Shown here: positions 36,555 to 44,890 of the stretch, piece after piece
Position numbering within the stretch: position 1 is the stretch's first letter
Layout: each line of letters starts with the position of its first letter
Source of the DNA: an uncultured Pelagibacteraceae bacterium
Lineage (GTDB): Bacteria > Pseudomonadota > Alphaproteobacteria > Pelagibacterales > Pelagibacteraceae
NCBI GenBank assembly: GCA_902578935.1
Contig: CACHEU010000001.1
Location: 248,001 to 312,000, forward strand
Direction of reading: 5' to 3'
Length of the DNA stretch: 64,000 bases
Program-made: the position numbers and the translations under genes
The notes under the pieces: model-generated
What the model was told of the DNA's origin: nothing
The model's input: only the letters and a program-made list of their open reading frames with translations
Databases searched by the model: none

Positions 36555-36910
36555 ACCGCTAGGCAATTGGATTGTCACTACTTTAATCAGTAGAGGAAAG
36601 TCCGGGCTCCATAAAGACACGGTGCCAGCTAATGGCTGGCGAGGGTGACCTTAGGGATAGTGCCACAGAGAATAGACCGCCTAATCAAGGCAAGGGTGAA
36701 ACGGTGTGGTAAGAGCACACCGGTTTTTTGGTAACAAAAAACGCACGGCAAACCCCACCGGGAGCAAGACTAAAAAGAGATGACGCTGCGTAAGCTAAAA
36801 ACAGTCTTTAGTTAGTCATCAGGGTTAGTCGCTTGAATTTAAGTGTGAGCTTAAATCTAGATAAATGACGTCTTAAATGACAGAACCCGGCTTATAAATT
36901 GCCTAGCTTT
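36555..36910 (+). ncRNA. rnpB: RNase P RNA (bacterial class A)
   Basis: The catalytic RNA of RNase P, which trims tRNA 5' leaders. Diagnostic segments are GAGGAAAGTCCGGGCTCC (36593-36610) and ACAGAACCCGGCTTAT (36880-36895), which form the conserved core. The ends pair perfectly over 11 bp: GCTAGGCAATT (36558-36568) with AATTGCCTAGC (36897-36907), the P1 helix, which sets the boundaries to within a few bases. A T-rich tract (TTTCTCTTCTT) follows, consistent with termination. Its place between the AmpD-type amidase gene and mraZ is typical of alphaproteobacteria. Confidence 0.96.
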
Positions 36911-36984
36911 CTCTTCTTAAATGTTCATGTTTTGTATCTACAGATTCTTTCAATGAGCTGTAATCAAGGGTCAACAAATAGGTG

Positions 36985-37013
36985 TTGACTATAATTTAAT
37001 ATACCCATACTAT
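36985..37013 (+). promoter_or_regulatory. mraZ/dcw promoter (sigma-70 type)
   Basis: TTGACT (36985-36990) and TACTAT (37008-37013) are separated by exactly 17 bp, giving a predicted start near 37020 and a leader of about 49 nt before mraZ. The -10 lies between the first and second TGGGN repeats of the putative MraZ operator. An alternative TATAAT at 36990-36995 lacks a good -35. Confidence 0.6.
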
Positions 37014-37028
37014 CCCATAAATTCCCAA
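37004..37028 (-). promoter_or_regulatory. Putative MraZ-binding operator (three TGGGN repeats)
   Basis: On the minus strand TGGGA-N5-TGGGA-N5-TGGGT is present (plus-strand CCCAA 37024-37028, CCCAT 37014-37018, CCCAT 37004-37008). This is the exact spacing described for the MraZ box upstream of mraZ in E. coli. Bound MraZ would cover the -10, giving autorepression of the dcw operon. A further TGGGA occurs on the plus strand at 37040-37044. Confidence 0.65.
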
Positions 37029-37068
37029 ATATAAGGGGATGGGAGATTTTTAAGGAGAAAGATGAAAC

Positions 37069-37533
37069 ATGTTTTTGTCGAATTACGAGAACAAGTTAGA
37101 CAAAAAAGGAAGGGTGTCCGTGCCATCTAGTTTTAGAGCTTATCTAAATTCTATGGGATATAACGGATTTGTCACTTATCCTTCTTTTAATCATGCTGCC
37201 CTAGATGGTTGTGCTCAAGATAGGATTGAAAAGCTTTCAGAAAGCATAGATTCACTTGGACCGTTTGAAGACAAAAGAGATTATTTTGCAGTCTCAGTTC
37301 TCTCAGAGAGCATAAGTTTAAATTTTGATAGCGAAGGAAGAGTATCAATTCCAGAAAAATTATTAAGGCACGCCAAAATTAAATCAAACATTGTTTTTGT
37401 AGGGTTAGGAAAAGTTTTTCAAATGTGGGATCCTAGTTCGTTTGAAAAATTCAAATCAGTTGCAAGAAAGAAGTCTTATATTAATAGATCAGCTTTAAGA
37501 TGGGACAATAAATTTAAAAAGGAGGGAGTATGA
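37069..37533 (+). CDS. mraZ: Transcriptional regulator MraZ
   Basis: 154 aa, usual length. Two SpoVT-AbrB-like repeats begin MFLSNYENKLDKKGRVSVPS and LNFDSEGRVSIPEKLLRHAK, each with the DxxGR core that contacts DNA. MraZ forms a ring that binds TGGGN repeats and represses its own operon. The start is fixed by homology; an out-of-frame ATG at 37062 lies between the AAGGAG (37052-37057) and the true start. The last codons overlap ftsZ (ATGA), coupling the two. Confidence 0.97.
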   Translation: MFLSNYENKLDKKGRVSVPSSFRAYLNSMGYNGFVTYPSFNHAALDGCAQDRIEKLSESIDSLGPFEDKRDYFAVSVLSESISLNFDSEGRVSIPEKLLRHAKIKSNIVFVGLGKVFQMWDPSSFEKFKSVARKKSYINRSALRWDNKFKKEGV

Positions 37534-38996
37534 CAATTAATATTGGCGGCGGAGAATTAAAGGAATTAAAGCCTAGGATTTTGGTAATGGGCATAGGAGG
37601 AGCAGGAGGGAATGCAATTAATGCAATGATTCAAGATGGCATGCAAGGAGTTGAATTTGTAGCTGTAAATACTGATGCTCAAGATTTAAAGGTAAACAAA
37701 GCAGATGCTAAAATTCAAATTGGAATGAATTTAACAAAAGGACTTGGTGCTGGAGCAAAACATGATATTGGCCAAGCAGCTGCCGACGAATCTTTAAACG
37801 AAATAGTTACTTATTTACAAGGAGCTAATATGGTTTTTATTACTGCTGGAATGGGCGGTGGAACAGGAACTGGAGCCTCTCATGTTATTGCAAGAGCAGC
37901 TAAAGAACTAAATATATTAACAGTTGGCGTAATCACTCTGCCGTTTTCTTATGAGGGACCAAAGAGAATGAGAAGAGCTGTTGATGGATGGGAAAAATTA
38001 AAAAAACATTTGGATGCATCAATTGTTGTTCCCAATCAAAATCTTTTTAAAATTGCGAATGAAACCACAACCTTTGAAAAATCTTTTTCTTTATCAAACG
38101 ATGTTTTAAAACATGGTGTTCGAAGTGTAACTGACCTAATGGTCAGACCTGGACTAATCAATCTGGATTTTGCTGATGTTGAAACAGTAATGAGCTCTAT
38201 GGGTAAAGCCATGATGGGAACTGGTGAAGCAGAGGGCGAAAATAGAGCTATAGCTGCAACTGAGTTGGCCTTAAACAATCCTTTAATAGACGACTATTCT
38301 TTAAAAGGTGCCAAAGGATTGCTTGTTAATATAACCGGCGGAGAAGATATCAAACTATTCGAAGTCGATCAGGCTGTAAATAAAATCAGAGCGGAAGTTG
38401 ATCCAGAAGCAGAACTTATTTTTGGAGCAATAAAAGATGAAAACTTAAATGGAAAAATGAGAGTATCTATTGTAGCTACAGCACTTGATGGAGAAGCTCC
38501 AGAATCAAAATCAGTAACAAGCAATGTTCACAGAATACATACTAGAAACTCCGGATATTCAGAAAATGTTGCCAACAATGTAAGCATGCCAACAATCCCA
38601 GATTTAGGATCTATTCAGGGCGCAACAGCTTTAAAATTGGATGAGGAAGTTAAAGAAGATAGAAATCTACAAAAACAAGATGATTTAATTTCTGGTGTTT
38701 CATTAGATAACGCTGCTTATTTTGAAAATAATTTGAATCAGGATCAAAATCATACAACAAAAGAGGAAGAGCAAGAAGAAGTTGTGATTGATGATATTTC
38801 TATTTATGAAGAAAAACCCCAAGATAATCTAGAGATACATTCCTCAGAATCAAACAATGCTCAGGATGAAATTTCCCCCCAATTATTTTCTGATGAGGGA
38901 ACTCTTGATACCTCATCAGAAGATAAGAACGACGAAGTCTTAAAAGAAGAAGAGGATTTTGAAATACCGGCATTTTTGCGTAAACAGAAATTCTAA
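37530..38996 (+). CDS. ftsZ: Cell division protein FtsZ
   Basis: 488 aa. The tubulin-signature loop GGGTGTG is at 109-115, the T7 loop NLDFAD at 211-216, and the C-terminal conserved peptide EIPAFLRKQKF ends the protein. The GTPase core stops at about 325; a long acidic linker (about 330-475) follows, similar in length to other alphaproteobacterial FtsZ. It polymerises into the Z ring. A strong GGAGGGAG precedes the ATG, which overlaps the mraZ stop (ATGA). Position between mraZ and rsmH is unusual; ftsZ normally follows ftsA. Confidence 0.98.
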   Translation: MTINIGGGELKELKPRILVMGIGGAGGNAINAMIQDGMQGVEFVAVNTDAQDLKVNKADAKIQIGMNLTKGLGAGAKHDIGQAAADESLNEIVTYLQGANMVFITAGMGGGTGTGASHVIARAAKELNILTVGVITLPFSYEGPKRMRRAVDGWEKLKKHLDASIVVPNQNLFKIANETTTFEKSFSLSNDVLKHGVRSVTDLMVRPGLINLDFADVETVMSSMGKAMMGTGEAEGENRAIAATELALNNPLIDDYSLKGAKGLLVNITGGEDIKLFEVDQAVNKIRAEVDPEAELIFGAIKDENLNGKMRVSIVATALDGEAPESKSVTSNVHRIHTRNSGYSENVANNVSMPTIPDLGSIQGATALKLDEEVKEDRNLQKQDDLISGVSLDNAAYFENNLNQDQNHTTKEEEQEEVVIDDISIYEEKPQDNLEIHSSESNNAQDEISPQLFSDEGTLDTSSEDKNDEVLKEEEDFEIPAFLRKQKF

Positions 38997-39010: not shown

Positions 39011-40024
39011 ATGAAAGATATTTCATCGCTGAGAGCCTTGCCACATTATCCAGTAATGTTAGAGCAGGTCTTAGAAGTTTGCCAACCTGAGAAGGGTGGG
39101 CTGTTTGTTGACTGCACTTTTGGTTCTGGCGGATATAGTAACGCTATACTCTCTTTTCCAAAAACAAAAGTTATTGCCCTAGATCGAGACTCTAATACTC
39201 AACAATATGTTAGTAAGATGAAAAAAAAATATAAGGATCGTTTTATTTTTCATAACTCAAAATTCAGTGAACTTGATAGGGTTATTAATAAAAACACTAA
39301 GATCGACTCTATAATTTTTGATCTTGGGCTTTCTTCATTACAGATCTCAAACTTAAAAAGAGGTTTTTCTTTTAACTCAAAAGGTAAGCCAGACATGCGT
39401 ATGGGGTTAAATTCAATTAGTGCACAAGAAGTTTTAAACAATTTAGGTTTAGAAACTCTTAGAGATATTCTCAGATTTTTTGGTGAAGAAAAAGAAGCTT
39501 TTAGAATTGCTTCTAACATAGTTAAACAAAGAGACAAGAAGCCAATTGCATCCATACCTGATTTGGTAAATATAGTTAGAAGAAGTAAGAAAAGAGATTT
39601 CAAAAAAAAAATTAACATTTCGACACAAACCTTTCAGGCAATAAGGATTTTTGTTAACAAAGAAATTTTCGAGCTAATTGAAGGTTTAATAAATGCCACC
39701 AAACTGTTAAAGGAAGGTGGAAAAATAATTGTCATAACCTTTCATTCTATCGAAGATAAAATAGTTAAGTTTTTTTTTACTAATTTTTCAAGAAACAAAT
39801 CCAGGGGCTCAAGATATTATCCAGATACAGATCAAAAAAAAATTTTATTTGAAAATTATAAAAATAAAATAATCCGACCAAATAGCTATGAAATAGAGAA
39901 TAATAATCCTTCAAGGTCAGCAAAATTGAGATTTGTTACAAGAGGTAAAGATAATTTTTTTTATCCAATAGATTTTAAAAACAAATTTTTTCACTATTTA
40001 GAATTGGAAAATAGACATGTTTAA
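39011..40024 (+). CDS. rsmH: 16S rRNA (cytosine-1402-N4)-methyltransferase RsmH (MraW)
   Basis: 337 aa. Signatures: LPHYPVMLEQVLEVCQP, SAM motif DCTFGSGGYSNAIL, DRDSNTQQYV, DSIIFDLGLSSLQIS, KPDMRMG, and ITFHSIEDKIVKFFF near the end. It methylates N4 of C1402 in the ribosomal P site. It follows ftsZ by 14 bp and overlaps ftsL by 8 bp. Confidence 0.97.
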   Translation: MKDISSLRALPHYPVMLEQVLEVCQPEKGGLFVDCTFGSGGYSNAILSFPKTKVIALDRDSNTQQYVSKMKKKYKDRFIFHNSKFSELDRVINKNTKIDSIIFDLGLSSLQISNLKRGFSFNSKGKPDMRMGLNSISAQEVLNNLGLETLRDILRFFGEEKEAFRIASNIVKQRDKKPIASIPDLVNIVRRSKKRDFKKKINISTQTFQAIRIFVNKEIFELIEGLINATKLLKEGGKIIVITFHSIEDKIVKFFFTNFSRNKSRGSRYYPDTDQKKILFENYKNKIIRPNSYEIENNNPSRSAKLRFVTRGKDNFFYPIDFKNKFFHYLELENRHV

Positions 40025-40338: not shown

Positions 40339-42078
40339 ATGAGCAAAAAAAAGAATAAAAAGATGAATCAAAAGAGCTTTTATTTTGAGGATTATAATTA
40401 TTACTCTAAAGGCCGATCAAACAATAAGAGCAGAGCGAATATAAGCGAGGATAGAATTTACTTACTTTTTTTTGTCTTTTTTTGTTTAATTTCTATATTT
40501 GCAATTAAAATTTTTGCAACTTCCTTGCAAGACACAAATTTTAAAAATACCCAAAACTATTATAGCTCTGTTTTTAAACCGCTGAGAAGTGATATAACTG
40601 ATAGAAATGGAGAGATACTTGCAAAAAATGTCAGAGTTTATCACGCCGCTATAAAACCAAATTTAATTAATAACAAGAAAAATTTTATATTAAAATTACA
40701 ACTACTTTATCCCAAAATAGATATAAAAATTATTAAAAAAAATTTAGAAAAAAATAAATATTTTTATCTAAAAAAGAATATTACCGAGAAAGAAAGAGCA
40801 AAATTATGGTCTCTAGGAGAAAAAGGCTTGTTGTTTGAAACAACACAAACCAGAATATATCCGCACAAGAATTTATTTAGCCATGTTATTGGACAGACTG
40901 ATATGGACAACAAAGGTATCTCCGGAATTGAAAAATCTTTTAATAGAGAATTGTGGTCACATAACAAGCCAATAATAATGACATTAGATGCAAATCTTCA
41001 GTTTTTAATTAGGGAAGAATTAATTAAATTTCAAAAAATTTTTAGCAGCGCTGGTAGCGCAGCAATTTTAATGGATATACATAATGGCGAAATACTTTCT
41101 ATGATTTCCTTACCCGACTTTGACATAAATAAAAGAGAAACAATAGATGATGCAAACTATATAAACAGAGCTACCAAAGGTGTTTATGAACTTGGATCAG
41201 TTTTTAAAACATTTACATTAGCCGGGGCTTTAAATGAAGGCATAGTAGAAACCAATACAGAATTCAAAAATCTTCCAAAAAATATTACATGTGCAGGAAG
41301 ACCTATAGGAGAATACGATGACAAAATTCCATCCGATTTAACAGCCGAACAAATTTTAATTAGATCAGGCAATATTGGTTCAGTTAGGATTGCTCAGAAA
41401 ATTGGAACAGAAAAAATGAGAAACTTTCTCCAAAATATTGGTGTATTGAGCAAAATAGAATTTGATATAGAAGAGGTTGGAGAGCCAGTACCTTTTAGAT
41501 GGGGTAAGTGCAAATTAGCAACGACATCTTTTGGTCACGGGATTACAACAACACTTCTTCAACTTGCTAAAGGTTACTCCATTATATCCAATGGTGGTTT
41601 TGATATAAAACCGATGTTAATAAAAAGAGAAATTAAAGAAAATAAAAAATATAGAATTTTAAATAAAGAGGTATCAGAAAAGATAAACCCAATTTTAAGA
41701 AAAATTGTATCAACAAAGGAGGGCACAGCTAATTTTGCAAATATTAATGGATACGAGGTTGGAGGAAAAACAGGTACAGCCCAAAAATCATTTAATGGAA
41801 TTTACTCAAAAAACAAAATTAATACATTTGTTGCTGTTTTTCCCACTTCAAAACCAAAATACGTTTTATCAGTATTGCTGGATGATCCACAACTAAGCAA
41901 AGACTATATCTACCACTATAAAGATGGAAGTGGATGGAAATATAAAGGAACTCCTTATAATACAGCTGGATGGACGTCAGTAGAAGTTGCGGGCAAAATT
42001 ATAGAAAAAATTGGACCTATTTTAGCCATAAATAGAATTGATTTTTATGACAACTATGTTGTTAAAAAATCTTATTAG
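40339..42078 (+). CDS. ftsI: Peptidoglycan D,D-transpeptidase FtsI (PBP3)
   Basis: 579 aa class B penicillin-binding protein. Cytoplasmic basic tail, one TM helix (about 40-62), pedestal domain with SDITDRNGEILAKNV, then the transpeptidase with S287-V-F-K290 (SxxK), S343-G-N345 (SxN) and K477-T-G479 (KTG). It crosslinks septal peptidoglycan with FtsW and is the beta-lactam target. It starts 1 bp after ftsL, and its end overlaps the murE-murF start. Confidence 0.98.
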   Translation: MSKKKNKKMNQKSFYFEDYNYYSKGRSNNKSRANISEDRIYLLFFVFFCLISIFAIKIFATSLQDTNFKNTQNYYSSVFKPLRSDITDRNGEILAKNVRVYHAAIKPNLINNKKNFILKLQLLYPKIDIKIIKKNLEKNKYFYLKKNITEKERAKLWSLGEKGLLFETTQTRIYPHKNLFSHVIGQTDMDNKGISGIEKSFNRELWSHNKPIIMTLDANLQFLIREELIKFQKIFSSAGSAAILMDIHNGEILSMISLPDFDINKRETIDDANYINRATKGVYELGSVFKTFTLAGALNEGIVETNTEFKNLPKNITCAGRPIGEYDDKIPSDLTAEQILIRSGNIGSVRIAQKIGTEKMRNFLQNIGVLSKIEFDIEEVGEPVPFRWGKCKLATTSFGHGITTTLLQLAKGYSIISNGGFDIKPMLIKREIKENKKYRILNKEVSEKINPILRKIVSTKEGTANFANINGYEVGGKTGTAQKSFNGIYSKNKINTFVAVFPTSKPKYVLSVLLDDPQLSKDYIYHYKDGSGWKYKGTPYNTAGWTSVEVAGKIIEKIGPILAINRIDFYDNYVVKKSY

Positions 42079-44890
42079 CAATCTAAAGCCTGAAGTTGGC
42101 GCACTCAAAATCAAGGGCATTTCTTTTGATAGTAGAAGTATAAAAAAAGGAGATTTATTTGTTTCCATCAAAGGTAACAAGTTCGATGGGAATGATTATA
42201 TTAGACAAGCCACTTCCAAGGGAGCTAAGGTAATAGTTCATTCTCGCCCAGTAAAAAAAAATACAAAAGCAACATTTATAAAGTTTAAGGATTCTAGAAA
42301 TATTCTTGCAAGGTTGAGTACAAAATATTACAAAAATAAGCCAAAAAATATAATTGCGGTGACAGGAACGAACGGCAAAACTTCGGTAGCAGATTTTTTT
42401 TACCAAATTTTTATGTTACAAAAGAAAAAATCTGGTTTCATAGGAACGCTTGGTTTCAGAAAAAATAAATCACTAAAACGGAGAAATTTAACTACTTTAG
42501 ATTCGTTGACCCTAAACAGGGATCTGAACGAAATGAAGAGAAGTGGTATAAATAATGTTATCATCGAGGCTTCTAGCCACGGATTAAAACAAAAAAGATT
42601 AGATTTTTTAAAAATTAAAGGTGGTATTTTTACAAATTTAAGCCACGACCATTTAGATTATCACAAAAACATGAAAGATTATCTTCAATCAAAGCTTTTG
42701 TTATTCAATGATCTTTTGAAAGAAAAGGGAACGATAATTACTGATACCGACATCAAACAATACGGGGCCATCAAAAAAATTAAAAGAAAAAGAAAATTAA
42801 AAATTTTTACTATTGGATCTAAAAGCAATATATTCGAAGTTTTAAATCATAAAGTTTTCAAAAACTTTCAGTTTTTGGAAGTTAAATACAATAACAAAAT
42901 ATATAAACTGAGAATTAATCTATATGGATCTATACAAATTAAAAATTTGTTAATGGCAATTTTAGCATCTAAGATTTGTGGTCTAAAAATCAAAAATATT
43001 TTCGGTAAAATCGAAAAAATTAAAAGTGTTGAAGGAAGATTGCAATTAATACGAACTTTGTCTAATCAGTCAAAAATATTTTTAGATTATGCGCATACTC
43101 CGGATGCGTTAAAAAATGCCATATTATCTTTAAGAGAACATTTTCAAAAAAAAATTACAGTTATTTTTGGGTGTGGTGGAGAAAGAGATAAAAGCAAACG
43201 AAGCTTAATGGGAAAAATTGCAAAAAAATATTGTGACAAAATTTATATTACAGATGACAACCCAAGAAACGAAAGTGCGAAAAAAATAAGAAACGATATT
43301 ATGAAGGGATTAAAAAAATCAACAGCCAAGGAGATTGGAAATAGAAAAAAAGCAATTCTTTATGCTTTAAAAAATTCTGATCCTCACGATGTAATTTTAA
43401 TTGCAGGAAAAGGACATGAGACTTATCAAGATCTAGGTAAAAGAAAAATTTTTTTAAGTGATAAAAATATTGTCAAAAGATTTAAAAATAAAAATATTTT
43501 TTCAGATAAAAAAAATAATGATCTAAAATATAACGGAATAATTTTAAAAAGAACTCTAAAAAATAAAAAAAATTATTTTTTTAATGGAGTTTCCATTAAC
43601 TCTAAAACGACAAAAAAAAACAATTTATTTGTTGCTATTAAAGGAAAAAAAAATGATGGTCATAATTTTTTAAATCAAGCAATAAAAAATGGTGCTAATT
43701 ATTGTGTAATATCTAAAACTATTAAAAAAAAATCAAAATTTATTCGTGTTACAGATACAATGAAATTTTTAAATCAATTAGCTAAAAATAAACGAGATTT
43801 ATCTTCAGCCAGATTTATAGCTGTTACAGGAAGTTCTGGCAAAACCACTGTTAAAACTATGCTTGGAAATTTATTAAACAAATACTCAAAAACTTATTTT
43901 TCACCAAAGTCATATAATAATCAATATGGAGTTCCACTGAGTATTTCAAATTTAAATCCGAATGATAATTTTGGAGTTTTTGAAGTTGGAATGAATAAAT
44001 TTAACGAAATTTACAAACTTTCAGCATTAGTAAAACCACATATTGGAATAATCACGAACGTTTCAGAAGCTCATTTGGAAAATTTTAGAAATATAAAAGA
44101 TATAGCTAAAGCAAAAAGTGAAATTATTTATAATATACAAAAAGGCGGAACGGTTATTTTAAATAGAGACGATAAATTCTTTGATTATTTTAGAAAAATT
44201 GCTGAAAAAAATAAAATAAAAGTTAGGTCTTTTGGTTATTCAAAAAAATCTGATGTTAAATTTGTTAGTTTGAAAAAAAAACAAGGCACTTTCTTTTTAA
44301 AATTATTTGTAGATAAAAAAAGGTTTTTCTTGAAAATAAATAATGGAAACAAGAGTTATATAATGAATATTTTGTCCAGCATTTCTACAATGAATGAATT
44401 AAATTTATCTTTATATAAAGTAAAAAATTTTTTCAAAAATCAAGCTCTTTTAAAAGGTAGAGGAAAAATTAATAAAATAAATAGATTTAACAAAAAGTTT
44501 TTTTTAATTGACGAGAGCTATAATGCCAATCCATTATCTGTAAAATCTGCAATTGAGAATTTTTCTGATATTCAAAAAAAAGGCAAAAAAAAATACTTTC
44601 TTTTTGGGGATATGTTGGAACTAGGTAGGAATTCACACATTTACCACAAAAAGATCTCTAAACTAATAAATAATAGTGATATTGATAAAACTTTCGTTTA
44701 TGGAAACAAAGCTTTCGAAACATACAGATTTTTGAAAAAACATAAAAGAGGAGAGGTGGTAAGAAATTTGCAATTATTTAAAAACAAGATAGCTAAAGTT
44801 TTAAAAAATGGAGATTTTTTGATGATTAAAGGTTCAAACGCAACAAAATTACATGAAATATCACAAGGACTTGTGGGAGGAGCAAAATAA
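42056..44890 (+). CDS. murEF: MurE-MurF fusion: UDP-MurNAc-tripeptide synthetase / D-Ala-D-Ala adding enzyme
   Basis: About 944 aa from the ATG at 42056 (ATG 42047 and TTG 42038 are in-frame alternatives). Residues about 1-480 are MurE: DSRSIKKGDLFVSIKG, P-loop GTNGKTS (104-110), SHDHLDYHK, YAHTPDAL, and DNPR (401-404), the motif selecting meso-diaminopimelate. From about 490 on it is MurF: NGVSINSKTTKKNNLFVAIKG-type start, P-loop GSSGKTT (592-598), EVGMNKFNEI, DESYNANP and FGDMLELG. Both active sites look intact, so one polypeptide should catalyse two successive cytoplasmic steps. No stop or restart signal interrupts the junction. Confidence 0.96.
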   Translation: MLLKNLISNLKPEVGALKIKGISFDSRSIKKGDLFVSIKGNKFDGNDYIRQATSKGAKVIVHSRPVKKNTKATFIKFKDSRNILARLSTKYYKNKPKNIIAVTGTNGKTSVADFFYQIFMLQKKKSGFIGTLGFRKNKSLKRRNLTTLDSLTLNRDLNEMKRSGINNVIIEASSHGLKQKRLDFLKIKGGIFTNLSHDHLDYHKNMKDYLQSKLLLFNDLLKEKGTIITDTDIKQYGAIKKIKRKRKLKIFTIGSKSNIFEVLNHKVFKNFQFLEVKYNNKIYKLRINLYGSIQIKNLLMAILASKICGLKIKNIFGKIEKIKSVEGRLQLIRTLSNQSKIFLDYAHTPDALKNAILSLREHFQKKITVIFGCGGERDKSKRSLMGKIAKKYCDKIYITDDNPRNESAKKIRNDIMKGLKKSTAKEIGNRKKAILYALKNSDPHDVILIAGKGHETYQDLGKRKIFLSDKNIVKRFKNKNIFSDKKNNDLKYNGIILKRTLKNKKNYFFNGVSINSKTTKKNNLFVAIKGKKNDGHNFLNQAIKNGANYCVISKTIKKKSKFIRVTDTMKFLNQLAKNKRDLSSARFIAVTGSSGKTTVKTMLGNLLNKYSKTYFSPKSYNNQYGVPLSISNLNPNDNFGVFEVGMNKFNEIYKLSALVKPHIGIITNVSEAHLENFRNIKDIAKAKSEIIYNIQKGGTVILNRDDKFFDYFRKIAEKNKIKVRSFGYSKKSDVKFVSLKKKQGTFFLKLFVDKKRFFLKINNGNKSYIMNILSSISTMNELNLSLYKVKNFFKNQALLKGRGKINKINRFNKKFFLIDESYNANPLSVKSAIENFSDIQKKGKKKYFLFGDMLELGRNSHIYHKKISKLINNSDIDKTFVYGNKAFETYRFLKKHKRGEVVRNLQLFKNKIAKVLKNGDFLMIKGSNATKLHEISQGLVGGAK

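Follow-up and report, generated by a model that had tools for sequence, protein, structure and literature searches.

How is mraZ, and with it ftsZ, controlled in SAR11, a group of abundant, streamlined marine bacteria, and where on the mraZ message would ribosomes begin? We have addressed this at one locus within the 64,000-nucleotide stretch of DNA analysed here (the window), which belongs to a genome of 1,004,637 bases whose closest named relatives are Pelagibacteraceae single-cell genomes with MraZ identities of at most 94%. The promoter in question is preceded by rnpB (RNase P RNA class A; 36559–36910, plus strand; Rfam RF00010, 295.8 bits) and followed by mraZ (37069–37533, plus strand, from its full-length start, ATG2). 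Next come ftsZ (37530–38996, plus strand; TIGR00065, 375.7 bits), the start of which overlaps the mraZ stop in an ATGA, and rsmH (39011–40024), after which more division and wall genes are found. An excerpt of PMC2704228 likewise places mraZ of Ca. P. ubique next to the RNase P RNA gene. The downstream genes of the window include a murE-murF fusion at 42038–44890 (NF008896, 872.1 bits, below the cut-off of 1023).

The gene behind the promoter is a true mraZ, as the first-pass annotation of this DNA had assumed, with matches to Pfam PF02381 (71.2 bits) and to the NCBIfam MraZ model NF001477 (163.4 bits, cut-off 162). Its product contains two PF02381 stretches above cut-off and one DxxGR motif per half (DKKGR and DSEGR), and the solved MraZ relatives of this protein are 1n0e, 9qlr, 9qlg and 9sx6. 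Residues 11–19 are invariant among 25 aligned proteins, from which it follows that the main mraZ frame is translated there and that full MraZ is made. An AlphaFold2 model built from 25 close relatives reached a mean pLDDT of only 48.7 and was discarded.

For comparison, mraZ was found in 84 of 101 genomes of relatives (28/28 of the complete, clean ones) and in 96 of 114 genomes of the class, Alphaproteobacteria; of the latter matches we kept only the best-scoring, which contributed 29 new loci. The 121 Pelagibacteraceae loci, some of them the same genome under two labels, gave 95 distinct genes; identical genes and genes shorter than 60 codons were dropped. The gene after mraZ is ftsZ at 118/118 Pelagibacteraceae loci and 21/21 loci of the sister family with more than 700 nt of room, counted as loci so that some genomes enter twice, and leaving out three and one loci, respectively, that were too short. 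This adjacency in both sampled SAR11 families contrasts with most other alphaproteobacterial loci sampled, where rsmH comes next at 27/29, ftsZ at one and neither at one. The ATGA overlap is seen at 80/121 Pelagibacteraceae loci and is absent from those of the sister family. Because ftsZ directly follows mraZ, any control of the mraZ promoter includes ftsZ, and the earlier expectation to that effect holds.

Between rnpB and mraZ-ftsZ, a promoter scan recovered the promoter already recognized in the first-pass annotation (36985–37013), with the -35 element TTGACT at 36985–36990 and the -10 element TACTAT at 37008–37013, both on the plus strand and separated by a 17-bp spacer. It matches the consensus at 9 of 12 positions, a level reached by 4 sites per 1.1 kb against 3.0 expected; since such a match is weak alone, the support for the promoter comes from conservation. 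The position of TTGAC and the overall geometry are conserved in Pelagibacteraceae, and TANNNT-type hexamers stand in the same layout in this family and its sister family. Three TGGGN repeats with an exact 10-bp period lie on the minus strand at 37003–37027, one base away from where they had been placed previously (37004–37028), with their CCCA complements at 37004–37007, 37014–37017 and 37024–37027. The -10 hexamer exactly fills the 6-bp (N6) gap separating repeats 1 and 2. The pattern CCCAN6CCCAN6CCCA occurs only once in the 1,004,637-base genome, and its reversed reading does not occur in it. An inverted repeat over the -35 element, GTCAACA-N6-TGTTGAC (36970–36989), was not seen in the relatives' sequences compared, and we therefore take it to be due to chance. 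In the predicted mRNA, the CCC of the last repeat pairs with a downstream GGG in a 5′ hairpin (37020–37042); in minimum-energy folds of 40 nt this CCC is paired at 79/95 Pelagibacteraceae loci.

The first-pass annotation had suggested that the box be sought in relatives and had named lack of conservation as grounds for abandoning it. The phasing is in fact kept, and the box layout recurs across the 143 fetched loci and the window. Three exact repeats are present in 83 of 95 distinct Pelagibacteraceae upstream regions and two in the other 12, and the distance from the start of TTGAC to the first repeat in the 83 three-repeat regions is 18 nt in 39, 19 nt in 43 and 21 nt in one. In the sister family (22 regions) five repeats are found in 15, four in 4, three in 2 and two in 1; the loci with up to five repeats upstream of mraZ are among L020, L024 and L055–L071. 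Of the 29 class loci, three had no anchor motif; among the 26 evaluable ones, 17 have at least three repeats, seven have two and two have one, so that at least two are present in 24/26. Mononucleotide shuffling of the class regions, 50 times each, produced no run of three repeats.

The MraZ box motif, described by Eraso in 2014, reportedly consists of three or more direct repeats, TGGGN or with a GTG core, that recur with a 10-bp period. The window has three such repeats just upstream of mraZ and over its promoter, and the sequence, the spacing and the conservation in both SAR11 families and most sampled class loci all agree with the identification made in the first-pass annotation. The likeness to the E. 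coli operator, also claimed there, holds in part. In K-12 MG1655 (NC_000913.3, Pmra/mraZ1p; our locus L173), three TGGG with the same 10-bp period likewise precede mraZ; however, they stand on the coding strand at 292–315 of the locus, starting 8 bp after the -10 (278–283), whereas the SAR11 repeats occupy the opposite strand and surround the -10. The gene following mraZ also differs, being rsmH in E. coli and ftsZ in SAR11. Because the repeats and the gene context agree, we hold the difference in strand and position to be non-defining. Direct repeats with a 10-bp period before the dcw operon are described in Burkholderia cenocepacia and Mollicutes too, as four 7-nt repeats with 3-nt spacers and as (AAAGTGK N3)3, respectively, in the sections available of PMC7761207 and PMC5282649; these have a GTG core, unlike the SAR11 box, and the B. 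cenocepacia box is reported to lie downstream of the -10 (PMC7761207). Judged by its sequence, the putative SAR11 operator is thus of a known kind, an MraZ box in an alphaproteobacterial layout.

The three repeats are very probably the autoregulatory MraZ operator of SAR11. MraZ from 37069–37533 would bind them along one face of the helix, covering both the -10 and the point where transcription is predicted to start (expected near 37019–37021) and excluding RNA polymerase, and the unit repressed would be mraZ-ftsZ-rsmH plus the following genes. Excerpts of PMC7761207 and PMC8475190 report that E. coli MraZ represses from repeats before its own gene, and that M. genitalium, when mraZ is deleted, has more mraW and ftsZ RNA and 25-fold more FtsZ protein. 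An improbable alternative is that the box is real but that MraZ activates this promoter or changes sign with dose. In its favour, overexpression of MraZ in M. gallisepticum is reported to be accompanied by increased FtsZ (PMC8475190); the derepression seen in the M. genitalium mutant speaks against it, as does the fact that the repeats in both SAR11 families enclose the -10, so that a ring of protein bound there would obstruct the polymerase. An operator acting by repression would place ftsZ, which in SAR11 has moved beside mraZ, under the direct reach of MraZ.

The box, though rightly recognized, is a fairly ordinary finding; the part worth testing is one that the first-pass annotation did not contain, namely a second reading frame that overlaps the beginning of mraZ and an invariant GTG inside the gene. 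In the window, a putative leader ORF of 22 codons plus TAG runs on the plus strand from ATG1 at 37062 to 37130, in the +1 frame (frame 1) relative to mraZ. A Shine-Dalgarno sequence, TAAGGAG (37051–37057, plus strand), precedes ATG1 by 4 nt and ATG2 by 11 nt and could serve either; as the two starts share it, ATG2 is not SD-poor here. Across Pelagibacteraceae, this one frame stays open between the box and mraZ and onward into the gene. Over mraZ codons 1–19, frame 1 is free of stops in all 95 distinct Pelagibacteraceae genes, against 305.0 ± 11.3 stops in 200 synonymous redraws, and when the genes are reduced to 20 clusters at 85% identity, the comparison is 0 against 66.8 ± 4.8. The remaining frame of these genes is not depleted (91 stops observed, 81.8 ± 6.7 expected). 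Two figures weigh against a selected frame: for the window gene alone, an open frame 1 has a chance probability of 0.0035, and among the 53 genes of the window, 9 have an equal stretch open.

Outside Pelagibacteraceae, the depletion is weaker, with 28 stops against 70.2 ± 5.8 in the sister family and 29 against 48.9 ± 4.8 in the class sample. Since the expected means were derived from codon usage in downstream parts of these genes, and this partial depletion indicates that usage near gene starts differs, the absolute expectations are somewhat high. One might therefore ascribe the codon choices to ordinary codon bias, or to RNA structure, with no second frame at all, an explanation we regard as highly improbable. 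The depletion is located at the codons where a T would create a frame-1 stop: codon 6 (Tyr, Phe or His) and codon 8 (Asn) end in C in 95/95 genes each and codon 11 (Asp) in 94/95, the single exception preceding a Val, where no stop can arise. All three end in C in 20/20 clusters, against 0–10 of 20 (0–50%) at other such positions, and, contrary to a general bias, codons ending in T are common at position 5, at which a T would not create a stop. As for structure, a weak predicted hairpin does contain ATG2, which is unpaired with a probability of 0.46 compared with 0.62 in redraws; however, the start region as a whole folds less stably than the redraws (more stably in only 21/95), and RNA structure was rejected as the cause of the codon choices.

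The starts upstream of mraZ also speak against structure or bias, in that their offset stays at 1 mod 3 although the leaders differ in length. Frame-1 starts lie 7 nt upstream of the mraZ ATG in 25 of the 93 Pelagibacteraceae genes that have one (as in the window, ATG 37062), 37 nt upstream in 35/93 and 10–79 nt upstream in the others, and here the shared frame follows from the design of the search, which covered that one frame. When the start with the best SD between the box and ATG2 was taken in any frame, the offset was 1 mod 3 in 79/95 genes, 0 in three and 2 in one, 12 being weak. ATG1 was superior to ATG2 in only 74/93. In two of the 95 genes (L108 and L011), no frame-1 start connects with mraZ, and each of the two carries one extra A in a run compared with a relative. 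No description of an overlapping frame in SAR11 mraZ, and no paper on Pelagibacter ribosome profiling, was found in the literature searched, which comprised open-licence papers.

An open frame may be kept for the peptide it encodes, and on this explanation, which we consider quite unlikely, a functional small peptide is selected for its sequence and there is no restart. Arg6, Gln8 and Ala18 of frame 1 are indeed invariant (95/95 each) and Gln11 nearly so (94/95). However, excluding T-ending codons from the mraZ frame is enough to dictate Arg6, Gln8 and Gln11; other positions vary widely, with, for example, Lys or Glu at 12, six residues at 4 and eleven at 9, and lineages have N-terminal parts of unequal length and unlike sequence. 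Ala18 alone is left unexplained by stop avoidance, and it coincides with codon 18 of mraZ.

This codon is GTG (37120–37122, plus strand) in 95/95 Pelagibacteraceae genes, compared with 1/22 in the sister family and 4/26 in the class, and GTG makes up 6% of Val codons elsewhere in Pelagibacteraceae mraZ genes. The wobble bases of the flanking Ser17 and Pro19 vary, so that only the GTG is fixed. E. coli K-12 mraZ likewise has GTG at codon 18 (L173, 335–400). Before the GTG of the window lies an SD-like stretch, AAAGGAAGGG (37105–37114, plus strand). Over the 20 nt preceding GTG18, pairing with the anti-SD reaches -9.10 kcal/mol, compared with -6.28 kcal/mol in redraws and -6.47 kcal/mol in redraws that kept frame 1 open, and it is stronger than the redraw in 86/95 genes. 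Pairing before codon 18 also exceeds the redraw in 20/22 sister-family and 17/26 class genes, because the codons for Lys-Gly-Arg resemble an SD. Frame 1 ends beside the GTG, at +62 in 31/95 genes and at +68 in 64/95; 25 genes have both stops, and all six that lack the +68 stop have the one at +62. In the window the stop is the TAG at 37128–37130, close to GTG 37120, the stop-near-start arrangement of termination-reinitiation.

Frame 1 needs one base gained to enter the mraZ frame, and an SD-like stretch precedes its stop, which in the 64/95 genes with the +68 stop often follows TTT. These features recall the programmed +1 frameshifting of release factor 2, by which the upstream frame would be fused to MraZ, and yet we think such a fusion very unlikely. 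Frameshifting of that type calls for a conserved slippery codon by the stop and a close SD-like stretch, whereas the stop here is at either +62 or +68 and the preceding codons vary (by inspection); in the 31/95 genes that stop at +62, the codons before it appear, again by inspection, unable to re-pair. A shift near ATG2 would need no 19-codon open frame, a late one would lose DKKGR, which is invariant, and in neither case is GTG18 accounted for.

The leader ORF may instead merely compete with ATG2, keeping MraZ scarce without any truncated protein, but this is unlikely. A stop near ATG2 could return ribosomes to ATG2, and the 19-codon overlap would prevent that; according to an excerpt of PMC9841429, termination-reinitiation in E. 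coli corrects out-of-frame starts and weakens with distance. Competition does not, however, explain why the GTG is invariant or why the stop is kept beside it; for competition alone, as for a selected peptide alone, GTG18 remains without a reason. If GTG18 is a restart codon, its invariance, the SD pairing before it and the stops at +62 and +68 are explained together.

We thus arrive at nested translation starts on the transcript from the mraZ promoter of Pelagibacteraceae, a proposal whose chances we see as evenly balanced. Ribosomes starting at ATG1 (37062) would read the short frame across ATG2 (37069), stop at 37128–37130 and restart at GTG18 (37120), giving a predicted protein of 137 residues (37120–37533, plus strand) that is MraZ minus its first 17 residues, DKKGR motif included, while those starting at ATG2 would make full MraZ. 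The choice of start would then set the amount of active MraZ while ribosomes still flow to the coupled ftsZ. Taken as a whole, the two-layer explanation, an MraZ operator together with nested mraZ starts, is probably correct. Should the second frame and the internal start prove real, a housekeeping regulator conserved across bacteria gains a second product in one of the most abundant lineages of the sea, and division control comes to include the choice of start site, which may tune the amounts of MraZ and FtsZ. Codon 18 and the three C-ending codons offer a clear handle for testing.

Two known cases come close to the proposed arrangement. In E. coli termination-reinitiation, as an excerpt of PMC9841429 describes it, a wrong-frame start is likewise followed by a stop and a restart at a nearby GTG; there, however, the stop is at the start itself and the full protein is restored, whereas SAR11 mraZ has no stops near the full start and keeps one beside the internal GTG. 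In Rhodobacter sphaeroides, a leader sORF precedes mraZ, and reporters gave weak evidence that it is translated; this sORF, however, overlaps the UpsM terminator and is reportedly confined to R. sphaeroides, and the sections available of PMC5089854 describe no overlap with mraZ.

MraZ without residues 1–17 would lack its first strand and the DKKGR loop and might fail to fold. More tentatively, mraZ could be a two-product gene, in which the leader ORF leads through the internal SD and GTG to a short MraZ that lacks its first DNA-binding loop and could join MraZ rings and weaken repression, forming one FtsZ-dosing circuit with the operator. RsmH is reported to modify the ribosomal P site and to influence non-AUG starts in E. 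coli (PMC8475190, in part). Its gene lies two genes on from mraZ, TTG often serves as the leader start and the internal one is always GTG; in its boldest form, therefore, the proposal is that the circuit could sense the activity of RsmH.

The sister family and most of the class loci compared suggest how this arrangement may have arisen. There, MraZ begins M-x-L-F, with the start in frame and two codons ahead of the F codon; in Pelagibacteraceae, ATG2 stands where the L codon would be, and the start upstream of it is displaced from the frame by one base. This would result from a one-base shift in the family's ancestor. At sister-family loci L020, L024 and L055–L071, an in-frame SD-TTG start would lengthen MraZ by about a dozen residues.
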